A DNA stretch of 60,364 bases, from the NCBI GenBank assembly GCA_016841325.1, contig JAENZJ010000005.1:100634-160997 (forward strand). The letters are read 5' to 3'. Under the pieces are notes generated by a model. The model saw only the letters and a program-made list of their open reading frames with translations. It had not been told where the DNA came from and searched no databases. This stretch comes from Thermincola carboxydiphila (GTDB lineage Bacteria; Bacillota; Thermincolia; Thermincolales; UBA2595). The first letter of the stretch is position 1. The number at the start of each line of letters is the position of its first letter. The position numbers and the translations under genes were made by a program. This document shows positions 35,519-50,147 of the stretch, piece after piece.

Positions 35519-35550
35519 CCTTCCTGAAAATTCAGGAAGGTTTTTGTTTT
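35519..35550 (+). terminator. Terminator after larC
   Basis: CCTTCCTGA (35519-35527) pairs perfectly with TCAGGAAGG (35532-35540), followed by TTTTTGTTTT. Confidence 0.88.
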
Positions 35551-35578
35551 AGAAGGACTGTTTGATGGAGGTTGGTAT

Positions 35579-38029
35579 ATGGACGGAAAAACTTATCCAA
35601 GGACTGACAGGAGAACTGAACGGAAGGTAAAAGTCCTGGCAAAGGTTGAACTGCTTTCAGGCCTGACCCGGCAGGAACTGTTTGAACTTGCGGGAGATTT
35701 CCGGTGGGAAGAACATGCCAAAGGGACTTTCATCTTTAGGCAGGATAAGGAAGCACACGGATTTTATGTCATTGCTGAAGGCCGGGCAGATGCATTTATT
35801 AACCGGGAAGGCCGGGGACTGATTAAATTGTCTTCCTTCGGGCCGGGTGATGCTTTTGGAGAAGTGGACCTTTTTACCGGGAAGCTCTCATCGGCAAGTG
35901 TACAGTGTACGGAGGACTGCAGGGTTTTGGCTCTCAGTGCCGAACGCTTTGCCTATATGCTGGTACGGTGGCCTAAACTGTACGCAGGCTTCGTAACAAG
36001 TCTTTCCCAGCGTCTTAACCTGCTCAACAAAGAGTTGTGGGAAGAGGGTTACCGGAACTTTCTGCGATCGGGATTGCAGTTCCAGCTCAAGTACAGGTCC
36101 TATGAATATTGGGGCAGCCCGTATTCGATGAGGGAAATAGAGGAGAGGCTCGGGAAACTTTCGCAAACAGAAGAAAATGTACTTTTCCTGGGAGAACGGG
36201 GGACAGGTAAAACCCTTGTTGCCTGGCTGCTGCATAAGAAGAAGTATGGGGAAAATGCCCCATTTATTATAATAGATGGACGGCATATGGACCGGCAGTG
36301 GGGAGACATACTGTTTGAAACCCGGCAAATCCCTGGGAACCCTGAGGGGGCAAAGACGTATTGTATCCTTAAGGTGGCAGAGGGAGGCACTCTTTTTATC
36401 AAGGATATCAATATGCTGTCTCCCAGGGCTCAGTTGAAACTGGCAGAGGTTCTGGGCTCCACCCCGTGTGCTCCATGCCGTATAGTGGGGACACTTCAGG
36501 CAGAACCGGAACACCTGTCAGTGAAAATTTTGCCGGAGCTGAAGAAGTTTTTCACTGAAGAATACCGCTTTTTGCCGCTAAGGGAACGTAAAAGGGATAT
36601 TCCGGTTATTTCCGCCAGGCTGCTGAAAAAACTTGCTGAACAGCACGGCAGAAAAACACCGTTGATTGACCGGGAAGCTACCAAGGTACTGCTAAACCAC
36701 AATTTCCGCCAGACAAATGTAGCTGAACTTATTCAGATTGTGGAACGTGCTTTTTTACTTGTCGATGGTGACATTATTGGGGTGGAACACCTCTTTTTCG
36801 GTCCTCCCGGAGAGAGAATAGGGCGCAGTTTCAACCTTCTGATGTGGAAGCGTTTCCACTCGTGGGTGAAGGAAGGGCTTTTTCCACGACGGCTGCAAAA
36901 GTTGACGTTTATCATAATGGTTGCCACTATAGTGGCCCTGCTGTTTATCCCGGGAGAAAAACCGGCCAGTTTTGGGCTTACCCTTGTATGGGGGTTGTGG
37001 TGGCCTGTCATTGTGATTAGCGCTTTCTGGATTGGCAGGGTATGGTGCGGCGCCTGCCCGGTTTCCTTTACCATGGAAAGGATCCAGAAGGTATTTCATT
37101 TAAACAGGCCGGTACCCAATGTTATTAAAAAATACGATTACCTGATCACAACTTTTCTGTTTGTACTGGTATTCTGGATTGAGGAAATGACCGATATGCG
37201 GAATAACAGGGTCTACGGCGGATTATGGCTTTTTATCATTACTTCGGCTGCAGCTGTTACCGGAGTTATATTTACCCGGCATACCTGGTGCCGCCACCTG
37301 TGTCCATTGGGTGGGCTGATTGGGATGGCATCTATAAGCGGTATGGTGGAGGTCAGGGCTGATCCGGAGATATGTCTGAATAAGTGTTCGACCCATGAGT
37401 GTTATCGCGGGACAGGAGATGTAGAAGGATGTCCCATGTCCCAGCATTCGGCTTTCCTGGACAGCAACCAGGCCTGTAAACTTTGCCTCCGGTGTGTGCG
37501 CAACTGTCCCAATGATGCTGTCAAAGTGAATATCCGGGTTCCGGCAAGAGAGGTCTGGCATTTGGTCAGGGTTAACCAGGGGTTTGTATTATTTATTGGG
37601 GTTGCCCTGGGAGTGCTGGTCCCAATTTTATATTTCGGGCCTCTCCACGGCGTATGGCCTGAAGAACGGTGGCGGTTTTGGTTTAGTGTGGCTTACTGGG
37701 GTGCAGCTGTTGTCACAGGGCTGGTTACATGGATGTTAGCCAGGCCTTTCAGGGAAAAAGCAGCCCCCCGCAGGATCAAACTTGTTTTCGCTTTTATTCC
37801 TGTTGTCATAGCCGGGTTTATAGCCTATCAGCTGAACTTCCTGCCCGGGACCAGGACTATCCTTGTCGGCCTGGGGTATGTTCCCCACATGGGTGCTGAC
37901 AATGTTTTCTATGTCCCGGTTTTACGGGTTGGTCAGGCGGGAGCAGCTCTGATGGGGATAATCTTAACAGGTTTTACTGTTGTCATGGTGATTCTAAGGA
38001 CCAGAAAAACCGGATTGAAAAAGAAATAA
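35579..38029 (+). CDS. cNMP-sensor / AAA+ / 4Fe-4S membrane fusion protein
   Basis: An 816-residue protein with three parts. Residues about 20-140 are a CRP-type cyclic-nucleotide-binding domain (GFYVIAEGRADAFI, FGPGDAFGEVDLFTG). Residues about 175-405 resemble the AAA+ domain of sigma-54 activators: Walker A GERGTGKT (205-212), GGTLFIKDI (269-277) at the Walker B site and LRERKRDIP. But the Walker B aspartate position is Lys275, no GAFTGA loop is present, and there is no C-terminal DNA-binding helix. From 440 on it is a NapH/NosR-like polyferredoxin: about four membrane segments with CGACP (490-494) and CRHLCP (571-576), then two [4Fe-4S] sites (Cys599/603/608/618 and Cys633/636/639/643) and four more segments. 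It probably passes electrons across the membrane under control of the front domains. ATG follows TGGAGG; single gene. Confidence 0.85.
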   Translation: MDGKTYPRTDRRTERKVKVLAKVELLSGLTRQELFELAGDFRWEEHAKGTFIFRQDKEAHGFYVIAEGRADAFINREGRGLIKLSSFGPGDAFGEVDLFTGKLSSASVQCTEDCRVLALSAERFAYMLVRWPKLYAGFVTSLSQRLNLLNKELWEEGYRNFLRSGLQFQLKYRSYEYWGSPYSMREIEERLGKLSQTEENVLFLGERGTGKTLVAWLLHKKKYGENAPFIIIDGRHMDRQWGDILFETRQIPGNPEGAKTYCILKVAEGGTLFIKDINMLSPRAQLKLAEVLGSTPCAPCRIVGTLQAEPEHLSVKILPELKKFFTEEYRFLPLRERKRDIPVISARLLKKLAEQHGRKTPLIDREATKVLLNHNFRQTNVAELIQIVERAFLLVDGDIIGVEHLFFGPPGERIGRSFNLLMWKRFHSWVKEGLFPRRLQKLTFIIMVATIVALLFIPGEKPASFGLTLVWGLWWPVIVISAFWIGRVWCGACPVSFTMERIQKVFHLNRPVPNVIKKYDYLITTFLFVLVFWIEEMTDMRNNRVYGGLWLFIITSAAAVTGVIFTRHTWCRHLCPLGGLIGMASISGMVEVRADPEICLNKCSTHECYRGTGDVEGCPMSQHSAFLDSNQACKLCLRCVRNCPNDAVKVNIRVPAREVWHLVRVNQGFVLFIGVALGVLVPILYFGPLHGVWPEERWRFWFSVAYWGAAVVTGLVTWMLARPFREKAAPRRIKLVFAFIPVVIAGFIAYQLNFLPGTRTILVGLGYVPHMGADNVFYVPVLRVGQAGAALMGIILTGFTVVMVILRTRKTGLKKK

Positions 38030-38044
38030 CAGGGATAATGTGTC

Positions 38045-38305
38045 TTATATAAATTTCCTGGATTCCTGAACCTGGCCGTATATCTCAGCCAGGACTGCCG
38101 AAACCTGAAAAACATATGCCTCTATATCATCCAGCCTTTGGTCCTCAATTGCAGCCATCAGGTTGCCAAAGGGCCGGCCCAGTATCAGGCCCCACAGCTC
38201 CAGAGGCTTCCCCTCATCTTTGGCAGCATTTTTGAAACGGTTGATTTCAACCTGAGTGGTTGTTCCAGCCATAAACTTTTTGTAATCAATACGTGGTAAA
38301 GACAT
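38045..38305 (-). CDS. Hypothetical 86-residue protein
   Basis: No family recognised. It is a soluble, probably helical protein (for example DYKKFMAGTTTQVEINRF and a C-terminal helix AYVFQVSAVLAEIYGQVQES), with no cysteine and no membrane segment. AAGGGAGG lies ten bases before the ATG, which supports a real gene. It converges with the fusion-protein gene with only 15 bases between stops, and there is no obvious terminator there. Confidence 0.65.
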   Translation of the reverse strand: MSLPRIDYKKFMAGTTTQVEINRFKNAAKDEGKPLELWGLILGRPFGNLMAAIEDQRLDDIEAYVFQVSAVLAEIYGQVQESRKFI

Positions 38306-43398: not shown

Positions 43399-43512
43399 AT
43401 TCCAAGAGGGAAACATATCAATATCTTTCCAGCTTGTAATTCCATTGATTAAAAACATTTCCGTTACTTCATTGCAAAAACCATTAGAAAAAATAATTGA
43501 ATCACTATTTGC

Positions 43513-43522
43513 GGGGGGGGGG
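43513..43522 (+). repeat. G10 homopolymer tract in cytochrome leader
   Basis: Ten consecutive G residues about 60 bases before the GTG start. The frame of the cytochrome gene is open through this tract up to about 43497, so length changes would alter any upstream-initiated product as well as leader RNA structure. Confidence 0.7.
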
Positions 43523-43583
43523 ATTTACTTTACAAAAGTCTGACAGAGCTAAAAAAACTGTTGGGAGAAAGGGAGGTTATCTG

Positions 43584-46500
43584 GTGAATATATCTAAACG
43601 AAGAGCAGCAATTATTTTTATTTTGGCAGCGCTGCTGGTCGTATCAGTTGTCTCCACCGTTATAGCTGTGGAATCCTCTGAACCGATTGTTGCGGCATTT
43701 TCGCCCGCAGATGGGACGCAATTTAATTCCGGCAGAGTTAACATTTCTTTTACGGTTAGTGACCCGGACCTTATTGCATCATCCAATTATTACATAAAAG
43801 TCAATGGCCGGAGTGTTCCGTCTTCAATCAGATTCCGCGGGCACTATGAGTATGACTCCTGTGGAGGAAGCTATTGGGTGGTTGACGGGGAAGACCAGGC
43901 CACTATTTCCGGCACGGCAACCGGGCTTGGAGATGGTGTCCAAAACGTGGAAATCGCGGCATCAGACCGTCTGGGAAATACTGTTGTAAAGACATGGACC
44001 TTCAATGTTGCCCAAAAACCTGTTTTATCGACTTTTACTCCGGCTAATGGCAGCATTGCAGCCGGAGCAGATATAATTTCTGTGAAAGTCACAGACAACG
44101 GGCAGATAGACGAGAGTTCCATCTCAATGGTATTAAACGGGGAAAGCCTTTCAGGAGTGCAGTTTGACCCGGCTTCGGGACTAGTATCTTATGTACCGCC
44201 CGCCCCGCTGGCAGATGGGAAGTATAACGTCAGTGTAACTCTTAAAGATACAGGAGATAACCAGGCCAGTTCTTCCTGGAGCTTCAATGTCTCCACTTCC
44301 GGGCCTCAGGCAACTTTTGCCAATGACGGGCAGGATTTCACCACTTATAAGCCAACACTGAGCATCAATCTGAAGTCGGTTCCGAAACTTGCGGAATCAG
44401 GCCATGTGGTGGAAGTCGACGGCCAGGCTGTTGGGGCAAATTTCCAGTATAAGGGACATACTGAATGGGACTCCTGTGGTGACTATAGCTGGTATGTTGT
44501 TGACAGCTACTATGAGGGTACCCTTACATATGTTCATCCATATCTTACCGATGGGGAGCATACACTTACAGTTAAAGCAAAAGACTCACTGGGTAATATC
44601 TCCACCAATTCCTGGACTTTTGGGGTTCAGCAAAAACCCGTTATTTCCGGCAATCAGCCTACAGGAATAGTTACCACTACTCCAGTCATTAAGGCCACTA
44701 TTTCTGATCCAAACGGTTCGCCCATAGATATGGAAACAATTGTACTGAAAATTGACAACACTGTTGTTACACCTGAAATAATTTATGATAACAGTGAGAG
44801 AACCTCTGTAACATTAACCTATACCGCTGCTGATTGTTCTGATGATCGGGAACATTCTGTTTACCTTGAAGGAACCGATGCTGCCGGCAATACCGTTAGC
44901 AAGAGCTGGACCTTTTACGGTTCGGTAATGGGTACTGCCACCGGTTTTACCAATCTGTATCCCACCGGTACTGTATATACCGCACCGCAAAATGTATCAG
45001 TACACTTTACCGATCTGGAAAACAAGTATGATGTCAATATGGCGAGAATCATCATCGATGGGTACATACCAACGACTTATTACTATGATTCCTGCGGTTC
45101 ATGGAGTGTTGAACACCGGCCCAAAGTATTTGGTGCCAGTCCTGAATATACACTGACCTATACAACAGAGCCTTTGGGTGACGGTGACCACACAATTGAG
45201 ATTACTATCCCTGCTAAAGACGGTGTCAGTCCAAATATCAGCACAACCATGAATTTTACGGTAAAAGTTCCTCCTTCCCTGGAGAAGTATACTCCGGATG
45301 AGGTCACAGGGACAAAAACACCGCAGTTAATTACCTTCTGGTCAGATAACTATGCACTAAAGCCTGACGGTTCAGGAAGTATCACCGATCCGTCTTCTTT
45401 TGGAAATGCTCAGGTCAGCATAGACGGACAGGAGCCGGTAATAATTAAGCTTGACCCGGTTTATCCCGGAACCACCGGAGTCAACACCAGTGGCAGGTTT
45501 ACTTATCGGATTCCCAATGAACTTGAAGACGGCAGGCATACGGTAACATTTACAGTTTATGACGTATTGGGCAATGCAGGTACCGGTGAATGGGACTTCA
45601 TTGTTGACACTGACCTGGGCCCGGACTACCCGGATATGCCCCTAGTACCTCTTGATGAAGATACCTGCCATTCATGTCACGCTGAAGAGACACCAAGTCT
45701 GGGCGGTAGTCACCCCGTTGTTGAGAAGTGTTATATGTGCCATACAGAAAAAACCTGGACATCAGGTTACCTGAATTACTGCTCATTCTGTCACAATGAC
45801 AACCGCGGTGAATATCAGAAATTCTTTACCTGGCGGCATACCGGGGACGGATACTCGACCTTTGAAAATATTGACTTTATTAAACATCCTATTAATGATG
45901 CCCATATTTCTGATACCAAAGGTTGTCAAAAATGCCATTCCCGGATTCTGACAGACGAACATAATGGTCCTGACAGGACAGATGCATCAGGAAATGCCAT
46001 GACCTGTGATACCTGCCATATGTCTTCAGATGCCATGGTTAAGGAAGCTATCAGTAACAGGGATTCCAACTGTACGGCCTGCCATGAAAGTGCTGACCAT
46101 GAAACAGTCCATACCGGCGGCACTAATGGCAAATGGGGACTTGACGAGAACTGCCTCACCTGTCACTCGGAGTCCCTGACCGGGGAACACCTGGATAATG
46201 AGATTACCAACCCAAATAAAGGATATACCTGTGACACCTGTCACGGCAGTGCAGCAGGCAAAGCAGCACAGAGAACAATTGCTGCCGGCAGGCTGAATTG
46301 CTCCGGATGCCACACTGACGGACATAACCTGCTTTTTGCAGACAGCGTCCCTGGCGATATTCCCGTTGCCCCGGGATTTGGATGGAGTCTGCCTATGGAA
46401 GCTGCTATATTTACGGGTGAATCCTCAATACCGGGGGGTTATGAAAATGGTCAGGTAGTAATCTCCAACAGGCGCTCCGATGTTACCGCAGAGAGCCTTT

Positions 46501-46694
46501 GGGCCTTCTATAATGATGGAATGACTGCTCAGGGCTGGACACTGAAAGCCGGCGCACCAGCCGCAGGTGCAGTTGAGTTCACGGCAGAATTTGAGAAGGA
46601 AGGCCGGTTTACTACAGTCAACTGTTTTAACACAGAAAACAGGGACGGTACCGGTCCCGATGCAGGATACAGGGTTGAGGTCTGGTACAAATAA
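43584..46694 (+). CDS. Exported Ig-repeat multiheme c-type cytochrome (9 haems)
   Basis: A 1036-residue exported protein. The N-terminus is a signal or anchor sequence (NISKRRAAII, hydrophobic to about residue 32). About residues 35-680 are six or so Ig-like beta-sandwich domains, each ending in a pattern like SWTFNV or EWDFIV. Residues 695-910 hold nine CxxCH haem sites (CHSCH, CYMCH, CSFCH, CQKCH, CDTCH, CTACH, CLTCH, CDTCH, CSGCH). The last 120 or so residues are a haem-free domain (from VPGDIPVAPG to YRVEVWYK) shared with the next cytochrome. GTG 43584 follows AAAGGGAGG. The likely job is electron transfer at the cell surface; partners and acceptor are unknown. Confidence 0.9.
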   Translation: MNISKRRAAIIFILAALLVVSVVSTVIAVESSEPIVAAFSPADGTQFNSGRVNISFTVSDPDLIASSNYYIKVNGRSVPSSIRFRGHYEYDSCGGSYWVVDGEDQATISGTATGLGDGVQNVEIAASDRLGNTVVKTWTFNVAQKPVLSTFTPANGSIAAGADIISVKVTDNGQIDESSISMVLNGESLSGVQFDPASGLVSYVPPAPLADGKYNVSVTLKDTGDNQASSSWSFNVSTSGPQATFANDGQDFTTYKPTLSINLKSVPKLAESGHVVEVDGQAVGANFQYKGHTEWDSCGDYSWYVVDSYYEGTLTYVHPYLTDGEHTLTVKAKDSLGNISTNSWTFGVQQKPVISGNQPTGIVTTTPVIKATISDPNGSPIDMETIVLKIDNTVVTPEIIYDNSERTSVTLTYTAADCSDDREHSVYLEGTDAAGNTVSKSWTFYGSVMGTATGFTNLYPTGTVYTAPQNVSVHFTDLENKYDVNMARIIIDGYIPTTYYYDSCGSWSVEHRPKVFGASPEYTLTYTTEPLGDGDHTIEITIPAKDGVSPNISTTMNFTVKVPPSLEKYTPDEVTGTKTPQLITFWSDNYALKPDGSGSITDPSSFGNAQVSIDGQEPVIIKLDPVYPGTTGVNTSGRFTYRIPNELEDGRHTVTFTVYDVLGNAGTGEWDFIVDTDLGPDYPDMPLVPLDEDTCHSCHAEETPSLGGSHPVVEKCYMCHTEKTWTSGYLNYCSFCHNDNRGEYQKFFTWRHTGDGYSTFENIDFIKHPINDAHISDTKGCQKCHSRILTDEHNGPDRTDASGNAMTCDTCHMSSDAMVKEAISNRDSNCTACHESADHETVHTGGTNGKWGLDENCLTCHSESLTGEHLDNEITNPNKGYTCDTCHGSAAGKAAQRTIAAGRLNCSGCHTDGHNLLFADSVPGDIPVAPGFGWSLPMEAAIFTGESSIPGGYENGQVVISNRRSDVTAESLWAFYNDGMTAQGWTLKAGAPAAGAVEFTAEFEKEGRFTTVNCFNTENRDGTGPDAGYRVEVWYK

Positions 46695-46836: not shown

Positions 46837-46913
46837 ATATTTAATTAAGGAAAAGTTTAACAAGTTAAAGGGGGAATTCCATTGAGTGCAGTTTGGGAAA
46901 GGTGGTGGAAAGC

Positions 46914-49900
46914 GTGCCTGCTAAGCATAACATTACCTGGGTATTAGTGATAGCGCTGTTAATATCGATTTCCGGATGGGTTTATGGAGTTGACGCTGAA
47001 GGAGACTCAACCGGTCCGGAAGTGAGTCAGTTATCTCCAGTACCCGGAAGCACTGTTAACAGTAATACTCCCCAATTCAGCCTCAGGTTTAATGATCCGG
47101 CACAACTTGATTCCAATGTAACTGTCAAAATTGACGGACAGGCGGTTACCCCCGCCATTACATGGGACGGCCTGTACAAAGATGTCCAGGACACCTGTAC
47201 AGGTGAATGGTATAAGGAACGGATAGGTGATGACTATACCAAAGGTATTGTTACCGCCCAGCTGCAGCAATTGAACAAAGGAGAACACACGATTTACTAT
47301 AACCTGAAGGACCGCCTGGGCAATGTGACAGAAGCCAGTTATACCTTTACCGTTTCTGACACCCAGGCCCCCCAGGTAAGTCAGCAGACCCCAGCCAATG
47401 AAATCACTGATCCAAGGCCTGTCATCAGGGCCAAGGTGAGTGATAACAGCACGATTGACCCCGGCAGTGTTTCCCTTGTATTCAGCGGAAATCCTGTTCC
47501 GGCGGTATATGACCCCATCACATCAATTGTAACCTATACAGTAACAGAAACCCTGAAGAACGGGACATATCCTGTTAATTTAACTGTATCTGATGCCTTT
47601 GGCAATACAACAACAAGTTCATGGAGTTTTACTGTCAATGAAAAAACACCACCTGCAATCAGCGGCCTGACACCGCCAAACGGTGGTGCAGTGAGTACAG
47701 GTACCCCCCTTATTGAAGCAGCTGTCAGTGATATCAGCGGCATAGTCAATCCTGTCTATCTGCAGATTGATGACAGCAGCCATACTGTGCAGTATAACGG
47801 GCAGACAGGTAAAGTGTCATACACCCCGGCAGGCGGGTTAAGCCAGGGACAGCATAGTGTAAGCATGTTTGTCTATGACTTCCAGGGGAATAAGGGTTCG
47901 GCTTCCTGGACATTTACTGTGGAATTTGCCGGACCTGCTGTAACTGATTTGTCTCCTGCCCCGGGAAGCATAACCGATAACGCCAAACCGCAGTTCAGCC
48001 TGAGATTTAGTGATTCCAGCCAGCTTGATCCCAATGTTACCGTTAAAGTTGACGGGCAGGCTGTAGCAACCAGTATTACCTGGGATGGCCTGTATAAGGA
48101 TGTTCAGGACACCTGTACAGGCGAATGGTATAAGGAGCGGGTAGGTGATGATTATACCAAAGGTGTTATTGTGGGCCAACTGCCGGAATTAAAAAACGGA
48201 GAACATACCATTTACTATAAACTAAAAGACCGTCTCGGCAATTTAACCGAAGACAGTTTTACATTCACTGTCTCTGATACAAAGGGCCCCCTGATTAGTC
48301 AACAGACCCCGGCGGATGGAAACGAAACAGGTGACGGGACTCCTGTTATTAGCGCCAGGCTGGCGGATACCAACGGCATTGACACTGAAACTGTCAATTT
48401 AAGTTTAAACGGGAGTCAGGTTAACTTTTCCTATGATATAAACACGGGTGTGGTCAGTTACCAGGTACCCCAACTCCTGCCCCAGGGAACTGTCAATGTG
48501 GAGTTAAGGTGTAGTGACAAACTTGGGAATTTCACAACCGGTTCATGGAGTTTTGACATTAAAGATACGACAGGGCCGCAGGTAACCCTGTTATCACCTG
48601 CACCGGAGGCGACTATCAGCAGTTTCTTTCCGGTGATATCTGCCAAAATTATTGATGAAAATGGGTTGAATACCCAAAATATCTCACTGACATTTAACGG
48701 GAAACAGGTTGGCTCTTATAACCCGGCTGACGGGACAGTTTCATATGTACCTGAAGCCCCCCTTGCCTACGGTGATTATACTGCAGCAGTATTGGCACAC
48801 GACAGTTATGGCAATTCTTCATCAGTCAACTGGAAGTTCTATATCCGTGATCCGGGCCCGCCGGTGGTAAGTGACCTCTTGCCGCCGCCAATGATGGGAA
48901 CAGCAGCAACCAGACCGGTTATTTCTGCCAGGGTTGCTGATTCTCTGGGCATAGATCTGGAAAAATCCACAATAAGTGTAGACCGGGTTTTACTTGATGC
49001 CGCCTTCATACCTGATATTGAGGATTCGGTCGTTTCCGGTACAATATATGCTGTTCCTGATACTGACTTGAGTGATGGATTACATTCTGTAGTGATCAAT
49101 GTTTTTGATATCTCAGGAAACAGCCGGCAGGAATCATGGCAATTTGGCGTAAACTATTATGACATGGTTGTTGATTACACTAATTGTCTCACCTGTCACG
49201 AGGGAGGTGCAGCCATAGAACAGAGACACCTTGCGGTACAAGACTGCAGCAGCTGCCATGGCTCTGATTGCGGTGAGTGCCACTCAGCACACACAACTTA
49301 TTGGCCGCCGCCTGTACAAAATACTCCGTGTTCAAATTGTCATAACTCCGCTGCTGTACATAGTTCTAATGAAGTCCTGCACAGTTTTGCCAAACTCGGC
49401 AGTGACTGCTCGAACTGCCACATGTCTGATTTAACAAAGGAGCATAATGTCTACAGAGAGGGAAGTGGCACAGATTACAGCTGCCAGACCTGTCATAGCA
49501 GCAGTGACCCCCTTGTACAACAGGCTATTACAGATAATAACTTGTCATGTACTGCCTGTCACGGGAATACTGCCGACCATGAAACCGCTCATACTAACAG
49601 TCTTGACGCGGCATGCAGGGATTGTCATTCCACAACCCTGACCGCTGACCACATTGTAAACAGGCCTGACCTGGGATTGAACTGCAGTACCTGTCACGAT
49701 AGTTCTACTTCATCGGTAACAAATGCAGTTAATACAGGTGACCTGCAATGTGCAGCCTGCCACAGCCAGGGTCATGGTGTAACAATTGTTTCGTCTGTAC
49801 CTGAGGACATCCCATTATTGGGGGGAGTGCTCTGGTCAACTCCCATGAAGGCAAGTATATGGGCAGGAGAATCATGGATGCCGGCAGAGTTCTTGGATAC

Positions 49901-50147
49901 CGGGAAAGTAGTGGTATCAGAACGGAGTAATGATATTTCCGCCGGCTCGGTTTGGGATTTTTATGAGCCGGAAATGTCAGTCCGGGGATGGTCATATGAC
50001 CGGCCTCCGGATATGGGATCTGATTTCTACAAAGTAACCTTTACCAAGGGGACGCGCAAGGCGCTGCTGTGGTTCTACGGCGGTGCAGGCCATCAATCAT
50101 CACCGGCAATTCCTGCCGGGTATCGCGTAGAGATAATTTATAAATAA
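46914..50147 (+). CDS. Exported Ig-repeat multiheme c-type cytochrome (10 haems)
   Basis: A 1077-residue paralogue of the preceding protein. Signal peptide near residues 1-27 (ending WVYGVDA). About 30-750 are seven or so Ig-like domains; the first and fifth are near-duplicates, both containing ITWDGLYKDVQDTCTGEWYK and GEHTIYY. Residues 758-950 carry ten CxxCH sites (CLTCH, CSSCH, CGECH, CSNCH twice, CQTCH, CTACH, CRDCH, CSTCH, CAACH). The C-terminal domain (from VPEDIPLLGG to YRVEIIYK) matches that of the first cytochrome. GTG 46914 follows GGTGG; a separate TTG frame at 46883 behind AAAGGGGG gives only 21 codons. Presumed role: surface electron transfer. Confidence 0.9.
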   Translation: MPAKHNITWVLVIALLISISGWVYGVDAEGDSTGPEVSQLSPVPGSTVNSNTPQFSLRFNDPAQLDSNVTVKIDGQAVTPAITWDGLYKDVQDTCTGEWYKERIGDDYTKGIVTAQLQQLNKGEHTIYYNLKDRLGNVTEASYTFTVSDTQAPQVSQQTPANEITDPRPVIRAKVSDNSTIDPGSVSLVFSGNPVPAVYDPITSIVTYTVTETLKNGTYPVNLTVSDAFGNTTTSSWSFTVNEKTPPAISGLTPPNGGAVSTGTPLIEAAVSDISGIVNPVYLQIDDSSHTVQYNGQTGKVSYTPAGGLSQGQHSVSMFVYDFQGNKGSASWTFTVEFAGPAVTDLSPAPGSITDNAKPQFSLRFSDSSQLDPNVTVKVDGQAVATSITWDGLYKDVQDTCTGEWYKERVGDDYTKGVIVGQLPELKNGEHTIYYKLKDRLGNLTEDSFTFTVSDTKGPLISQQTPADGNETGDGTPVISARLADTNGIDTETVNLSLNGSQVNFSYDINTGVVSYQVPQLLPQGTVNVELRCSDKLGNFTTGSWSFDIKDTTGPQVTLLSPAPEATISSFFPVISAKIIDENGLNTQNISLTFNGKQVGSYNPADGTVSYVPEAPLAYGDYTAAVLAHDSYGNSSSVNWKFYIRDPGPPVVSDLLPPPMMGTAATRPVISARVADSLGIDLEKSTISVDRVLLDAAFIPDIEDSVVSGTIYAVPDTDLSDGLHSVVINVFDISGNSRQESWQFGVNYYDMVVDYTNCLTCHEGGAAIEQRHLAVQDCSSCHGSDCGECHSAHTTYWPPPVQNTPCSNCHNSAAVHSSNEVLHSFAKLGSDCSNCHMSDLTKEHNVYREGSGTDYSCQTCHSSSDPLVQQAITDNNLSCTACHGNTADHETAHTNSLDAACRDCHSTTLTADHIVNRPDLGLNCSTCHDSSTSSVTNAVNTGDLQCAACHSQGHGVTIVSSVPEDIPLLGGVLWSTPMKASIWAGESWMPAEFLDTGKVVVSERSNDISAGSVWDFYEPEMSVRGWSYDRPPDMGSDFYKVTFTKGTRKALLWFYGGAGHQSSPAIPAGYRVEIIYK

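Follow-up and report, generated by a model that had tools for sequence, protein, structure and literature searches.

The stretch of DNA analysed here (the window, 60,364 nucleotides from Thermincola carboxydiphila) harbours a gene for a protein, P0001, in which a CRP-type cyclic-nucleotide-binding (CNB) domain, a degenerate sigma-54-activator AAA+ domain and a membrane polyferredoxin are joined in one chain. The architecture is conserved in two phyla, its aligned members form a single clade with invariant cysteines in the membrane part, and their head has lost the motifs of an ATPase and of a cAMP receptor and is under selection. The reading that we favour, which we judge to be about evenly poised between right and wrong, is a menaquinone-linked redox protein with Fe-S clusters on the cytosolic face and a non-catalytic CNB/AAA control head that binds a ligand or a partner.

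Gene and transcription context

The P0001 frame opens with an ATG at 35579, preceded by a Shine-Dalgarno sequence (GGAGG) 8 nt 5' of the start, and runs uninterrupted to a stop codon ending at 38029; the single 816-codon frame described in an earlier note on this DNA is one complete gene. The hairpin in the leader 5' of this gene is read as the larC terminator, and with that terminator lying ahead the P0001 gene is transcribed either on its own or by read-through. An Rfam search over 30-46 kb of the window gave no match, and neither did the viral_contigs scan.

35519..35551, plus strand: intrinsic terminator CCTTCCTGAAAATTCAGGAAGGTTTTTGTTTT between larC and the P0001 gene (similar hairpin in a congeneric genome, locus L064)
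35579..38029, plus strand: complete gene for P0001, 816 aa, CNB, pseudo-AAA+ and membrane polyferredoxin (open reading frame, domain matches, full-length homologues)

Downstream, an 86-aa ORF without a Pfam match (38045-38305, minus strand) is kept in three Thermincola loci, adjoining or near the fused gene. An ion-channel gene (PF00520; 42433-43266, plus strand) is split by a stop codon into pieces of 148 and 112 aa; in a congeneric genome the same gene is intact in one 288-aa frame (L062, 3100-3966), and the broken copy is either a pseudogene or a sequence error. Further on, 43497-46694 and 46893-50147 (plus strand) encode two large proteins of Ig-like repeats whose C-terminal parts are multiheme cytochrome domains (PF14522, PF22113), the second also carrying a CopC domain; both are candidate cell-wall cytochromes.

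Domain architecture and the membrane module

All Pfam matches on P0001 lie above the curated cut-offs: cNMP_binding at residues 45-128 (6.5e-17), Sigma54_activ_2 at 182-305 (7.3e-15), AAA_lid_14 at 335-405 (2.3e-12) and Fer4_5 in two stretches of the C-terminal half (2.1e-6). The NCBIfam model napH_ matches residues 477-651 with an E-value of 4.6e-10, but at 39.4 bits against a curated cut-off of 213, which is short of the score of a NapH/MauN protein. The CRP-like, sigma-54-activator-like and NapH/NosR-like parts named in the earlier note are thus borne out.

35711..35962, plus strand: CNB/CRP-type beta-roll, residues 45-128, with the cyclic-phosphate Arg replaced (FGEVDLFTGKLSSASV; Pfam PF00027, 6.5e-17, and motif columns)
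36122..36793, plus strand: degenerate sigma-54-activator AAA+ domain (182-305) and lid (335-405) (Pfam PF14532 and PF25601; control alignment against six genuine activators from P0001's genome)
36893..37996, plus strand: eight predicted TM helices, residues 439-806 (hydropathy, positive-inside count)
37046..37060, plus strand: CX2CP motif, residues 490-494 (C490, C493), invariant, predicted on the cytosolic side (15-sequence alignment, topology)
37289..37306, plus strand: CX3CP motif, residues 571-576 (C571, C575), invariant, predicted on the cytosolic side (15-sequence alignment, topology)
37373..37510, plus strand: two predicted [4Fe-4S] sites, residues 599-644, with 8/8 Cys invariant (15-sequence alignment, motifs)

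The NapH/NosR-like membrane [4Fe-4S] module spans about residues 430-816. Its helices are predicted at 439-457, 467-485, 522-540, 547-565, 669-687, 702-720, 733-751 and 788-806, and hydropathy also reveals a weaker hydrophobic segment at 574-592, directly past the CX3CP motif. When eight crossings and a cytosolic N-terminus are assumed, the Lys/Arg counts are 7, 6, 12, 5 and 6 inside and 1, 2, 2 and 2 outside. This agrees with the positive-inside rule, fits the earlier estimate of about eight membrane segments and places all 12 motif cysteines on the predicted cytosolic side.

These cysteines are invariant (12/12) among 15 aligned fused proteins from two phyla. Eight of them make up two predicted [4Fe-4S] motifs, CX3CX4CX9CP (599, 603, 608, 618) and CX2CX2CX3CP (633, 636, 639, 643), so that the two sites claimed previously stand with the correction that the former motif is non-canonical. 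Both membrane CP motifs are likewise present, the first being CX2CP and not CX3CP. With two CP motifs at helix ends and eight cysteines for two clusters, P0001 is a NapH/NosR-like polyferredoxin in the broad sense. It contains no CXXCH, no FMN-binding domain (Pfam) of the kind that carries covalent FMN in NosR and RdhC, no outward Fe-S site and no match to an HTH family; having no extracytoplasmic cofactor, the module alone would be unable to pass electrons outward. Against PDB sequences the membrane module gave short ferredoxin matches only (E 0.04 or worse) and no solved structure matched, while an AlphaFold2 model from two sequences, with a pLDDT of 35, was unusable.

Distribution and origin

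The three-part architecture was found in P0001, in a second full-length copy of its own genome (49% identical), at 14 further Bacillota loci and on two cyanobacterial plasmids. The genome of P0001 is a 3.43-Mb draft of 99% completeness, and it and three relatives each harbour two paralogs. An orthologue in a Thermincola ferriacetica MAG has 88% identity to P0001, and the plasmid copies (Aulosira laxa, Pseudanabaena galeata) are 897-904 aa long with the same Pfam order and 23-24% identity. Of 398 genomes of the phylum searched with a profile, 13 have the architecture, one of them (G087) with a broken gene: at locus L061 (7673-9824) the sole fused copy of this genome is interrupted by a frameshift or stops, leaving a 611-aa frame and remnants. 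A fusion by sequencing error, which the earlier note had raised against its own reading, was rejected, as the architecture is the same in the 14 other aligned sequences, the own-genome paralog included, and neither chance nor a frame error can account for homologues in many genomes that match P0001 in length and in the order of their domains.

A maximum-likelihood tree built on the membrane module divides 15 fused proteins from 19 stand-alone relatives at one branch (99/98; 200/200 bootstrap trees), and the AAA parts of the fused proteins likewise separate from those of the six true activators in P0001's genome (99/97). Judged by sequence, the fused proteins form one clade separate from the stand-alone relatives, in a tree without root placement. 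No description of the combined architecture was found in the open-access literature, to which the search was confined, so that its absence is weak evidence.

A cysteine synthase gene lies 6-18 nt behind each cyanobacterial copy, in an apparent two-gene unit (L048, 8833-12524; L049, 8926-12563). Genes for PetC (Rieske) and D1 lie less than 10 kb away at these loci, and rhodanese/DsrE genes are found at L049. Elsewhere, at L083 (3636-6095), the gene behind that of an FTR1-like iron permease encodes a stand-alone relative of the membrane module, an arrangement that, by eye, resembles FtrCD-type iron uptake.

Motif loss and selection in the head

The Walker A motif that the earlier note had seen is present in P0001 itself (GERGTGKT), but it is not a family trait: the Lys is found in 7/15 aligned members including P0001, the full GKT in four, and eight have GRQ, with Arg for Lys. 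The Lys noted at the Walker B position of P0001 (FIKDI) is part of a wider loss, in that the Asp is absent from all 15 members and replaced by K, R, Q, N or E. The GAFTGA loop is found in 0/15 and the arginine-finger stretch is missing in the aligned members (n=15). Six true sigma-54 activators from P0001's genome, aligned as controls, retain Walker A intact, together with acidic Walker B pairs and arginine-finger stretches, with the exact GAFTGA in 5/6 and HTH-like tails as judged by eye. The ATPase motifs are thus lost in the family and kept by the same-genome controls, and the nucleotide-driven conformational change once envisaged finds no support, given the loss of the Walker B Asp in 15/15 and of the Walker A Lys in 8/15 and the missing arginine-finger segment.

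When Thermincola orthologues were compared with P0001, dN/dS was 0.03-0.08 in the head domains and 0.05 in the Fe-S core, ratios that are approximate with dS near 1. The head is under purifying selection as strong as that on the Fe-S core. It is therefore functional, though neither as an ATPase nor as a cAMP receptor.

An active, membrane-tethered sigma-54-dependent activator (bEBP) would have in its favour the AAA+ and lid domains, which share homology with NtrC-family proteins, and an rpoN match in 12/13 host genomes. This role is refuted on its defining features and has a negligible chance of being correct: GAFTGA, the Walker B Asp, the arginine-finger segment and an HTH, by which NtrC-family proteins differ from P0001, are absent from the 15 members and kept by the true activators of the same genome. 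Moreover, the single-contig genome G302, 98% complete, carries an intact fused gene and gave no rpoN match, which argues that the family does not serve as sigma-54 activators. The gene occurs in Cyanobacteria as well, which are not known to possess sigma-54, and a control genome, Synechococcus elongatus, gave no rpoN match. The earlier doubt about a transcription role, raised on the lack of GAFTGA and of a DNA-binding domain, was well founded. In public annotation the members go by 'nitrogen assimilation regulatory protein' or else by 'cyclic nucleotide-binding domain-containing protein', names that are contradicted by the lost motifs.

The CNB part is related to CRP/PKA-type domains at the domain level (6.5e-17) but differs in that the phosphate-contacting Arg of the cNMP cassette is absent from 15/15 aligned members, and a cAMP sensor was rejected on this ground. 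Class III cyclases, the only class searched, matched in 3/13 host genomes, and in neither P0001's genome nor the four nearest host genomes. Cyclic-nucleotide sensing as originally proposed is thus unsupported; gating of P0001 by some other small ligand is possible. In kinetoplastid PKA, a cassette that has lost the Arg and has an acid at the A202 position is associated with binding of nucleoside and not cAMP (PMC10959531). P0001 has Asp at the aligned position, where most relatives have Ser, and by analogy this may hint at a nucleoside-type ligand, as a lead only.

Neighbours and hosts

Tabulation of 16 Bacillota loci revealed no neighbour conserved between genera, and the multiheme cytochromes downstream of P0001 (43497-50147) are a genus-level neighbourhood. 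Polyferredoxins of the FtrD/CcoG type deliver electrons for metal or sulfur handling, and P0001 could serve as a maturation or assimilation factor of this kind and not in respiration. The stand-alone relative adjoining the FTR1-like permease and the cysteine synthase genes close behind both cyanobacterial copies would suit such a role, but fused and stand-alone forms lie in separate clades and no such neighbours occur at the Bacillota loci, which leaves it improbable.

The earlier note had a ligand-gated, possibly nucleotide-driven protein as a candidate link from quinol to multiheme cytochromes, which would here mean a ligand- or ATP-gated link in extracellular electron transfer. The cytochromes nearby within the genus speak for it, as does the presence of PF09699 cytochromes in 11/13 host genomes against 60/398 sampled, a comparison limited by shared ancestry. 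However, PF09699 matched nothing in the hosts G206 and G302, and G003, a 99% complete genome of the same family, is rich in these cytochromes and has no fused gene. The neighbours are not kept outside the genus, the cysteines are all predicted to be cytosolic with no outward cofactor, and the fused protein is also found in Cyanobacteria. In the published Thermincola pathway, moreover, it is the decaheme ImdcA that is proposed for the quinol-to-periplasm step (PMC7911101). The link to cytochromes is hence even less probable than a maturation or assimilation role, and both are less likely than a redox module or a redox sensor.

A marker of the menaquinone pathway was present in 13/13 hosts, with PF02621 in 11/13 and MenD scoring above its cut-off in G130, G345 and G385; MqnC was found in 8/13 hosts and 102/398 sampled genomes, and these counts are confounded by shared ancestry.

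Proposed function

The favoured reading of a quinone-linked redox module would have P0001 in the inner membrane, where its NapH/NosR-like module may trade electrons with the menaquinone pool by way of the two cytosolic-face [4Fe-4S] clusters and the two CP motifs at the membrane border. The N-terminal head would be a former regulator, a CRP-like beta-roll with a sigma-54-activator AAA+ domain, that has given up ATPase and sigma-54 function and was perhaps retained as a cytosolic control module which, with a protein or a small ligand as its binding partner, sets or reports the activity of the Fe-S module. The invariance of 12 cysteines across two phyla points to Fe-S redox chemistry, and the relatedness of the C-terminal module to NapH and to stand-alone 4Fe-4S membrane proteins suggests a link to quinone, which the pathway marker in every tested host would specify as menaquinone. 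Low dN/dS, family-wide loss of the ATPase motifs and presence of the gene in the rpoN-less G302 and in Cyanobacteria argue for a non-catalytic control head. Against this reading counts that none of the 16 Bacillota loci has an operon partner pointing to an electron donor or acceptor. What the head binds, and whether it gates electron flow or the redox state signals through it, are matters of speculation.

The main rival, which we hold to be possible though rather unlikely, is a redox sensor and not a respiratory carrier: the polyferredoxin would read the redox state of the quinone or of the cytosol, and the head would relay it to a protein partner, for instance through titration of a true regulator. 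It would agree with an orphan gene outside any respiratory operon, a head of signalling-protein descent under selection and the paired paralogs in P0001's genome and three relatives. NosR and RdhC proteins were also regulators in the first proposals (PMC5928378), but for RdhC this role was later dropped in favour of electron transfer (PMC5928378), and P0001 has neither a DNA-binding domain nor an output domain of known type.

Returning to the quinone-linked module, we tentatively suggest, as less likely than not, a new class of membrane redox switch. In it, the catalytically dead AAA+ domain of a sigma-54 activator and a CRP-type sensor that does not bind cAMP would have been co-opted in a single event to gate, or to read out, a quinone-linked [4Fe-4S] module on a cytosolic ligand, and the combination would then have spread over Bacillota and Cyanobacteria. 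If true, a cytosolic sensory head would be coupled to a membrane Fe-S carrier in one chain, with electron flow controlled or reported without transcription, and the family would be a clear example of a transcription-activator ATPase reused as a non-catalytic module.

Comparison with known systems

NapH and NosR, built on a core of four membrane helices with CP motifs, act in the transfer of electrons from quinol to enzymes (PMC5928378). P0001 shares with NapH/MauN and NosR the CP motifs at helix ends and the two [4Fe-4S] sites, and differs in its first motif (CX2CP), one non-canonical Fe-S motif and four extra C-terminal helices; it has no FMN domain and no nap or nos genes nearby, and carries the CNB and AAA head instead. 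The stand-alone 4Fe-4S membrane proteins of Bacillota and Deinococcus (about 445 aa) are 27-39% identical to P0001 over the membrane/Fe-S module, but they belong to the separate clade (99/98), are headless and frequently come in a pair with a small, secreted-looking protein. RdhC/PceC resembles P0001 in joining an added N-terminal domain to a membrane core of four helices that bears CP motifs (PMC5928378); PceC has an extracytoplasmic FMN domain and no [4Fe-4S] motifs, whereas P0001 has a cytosolic regulatory head and has kept the clusters.
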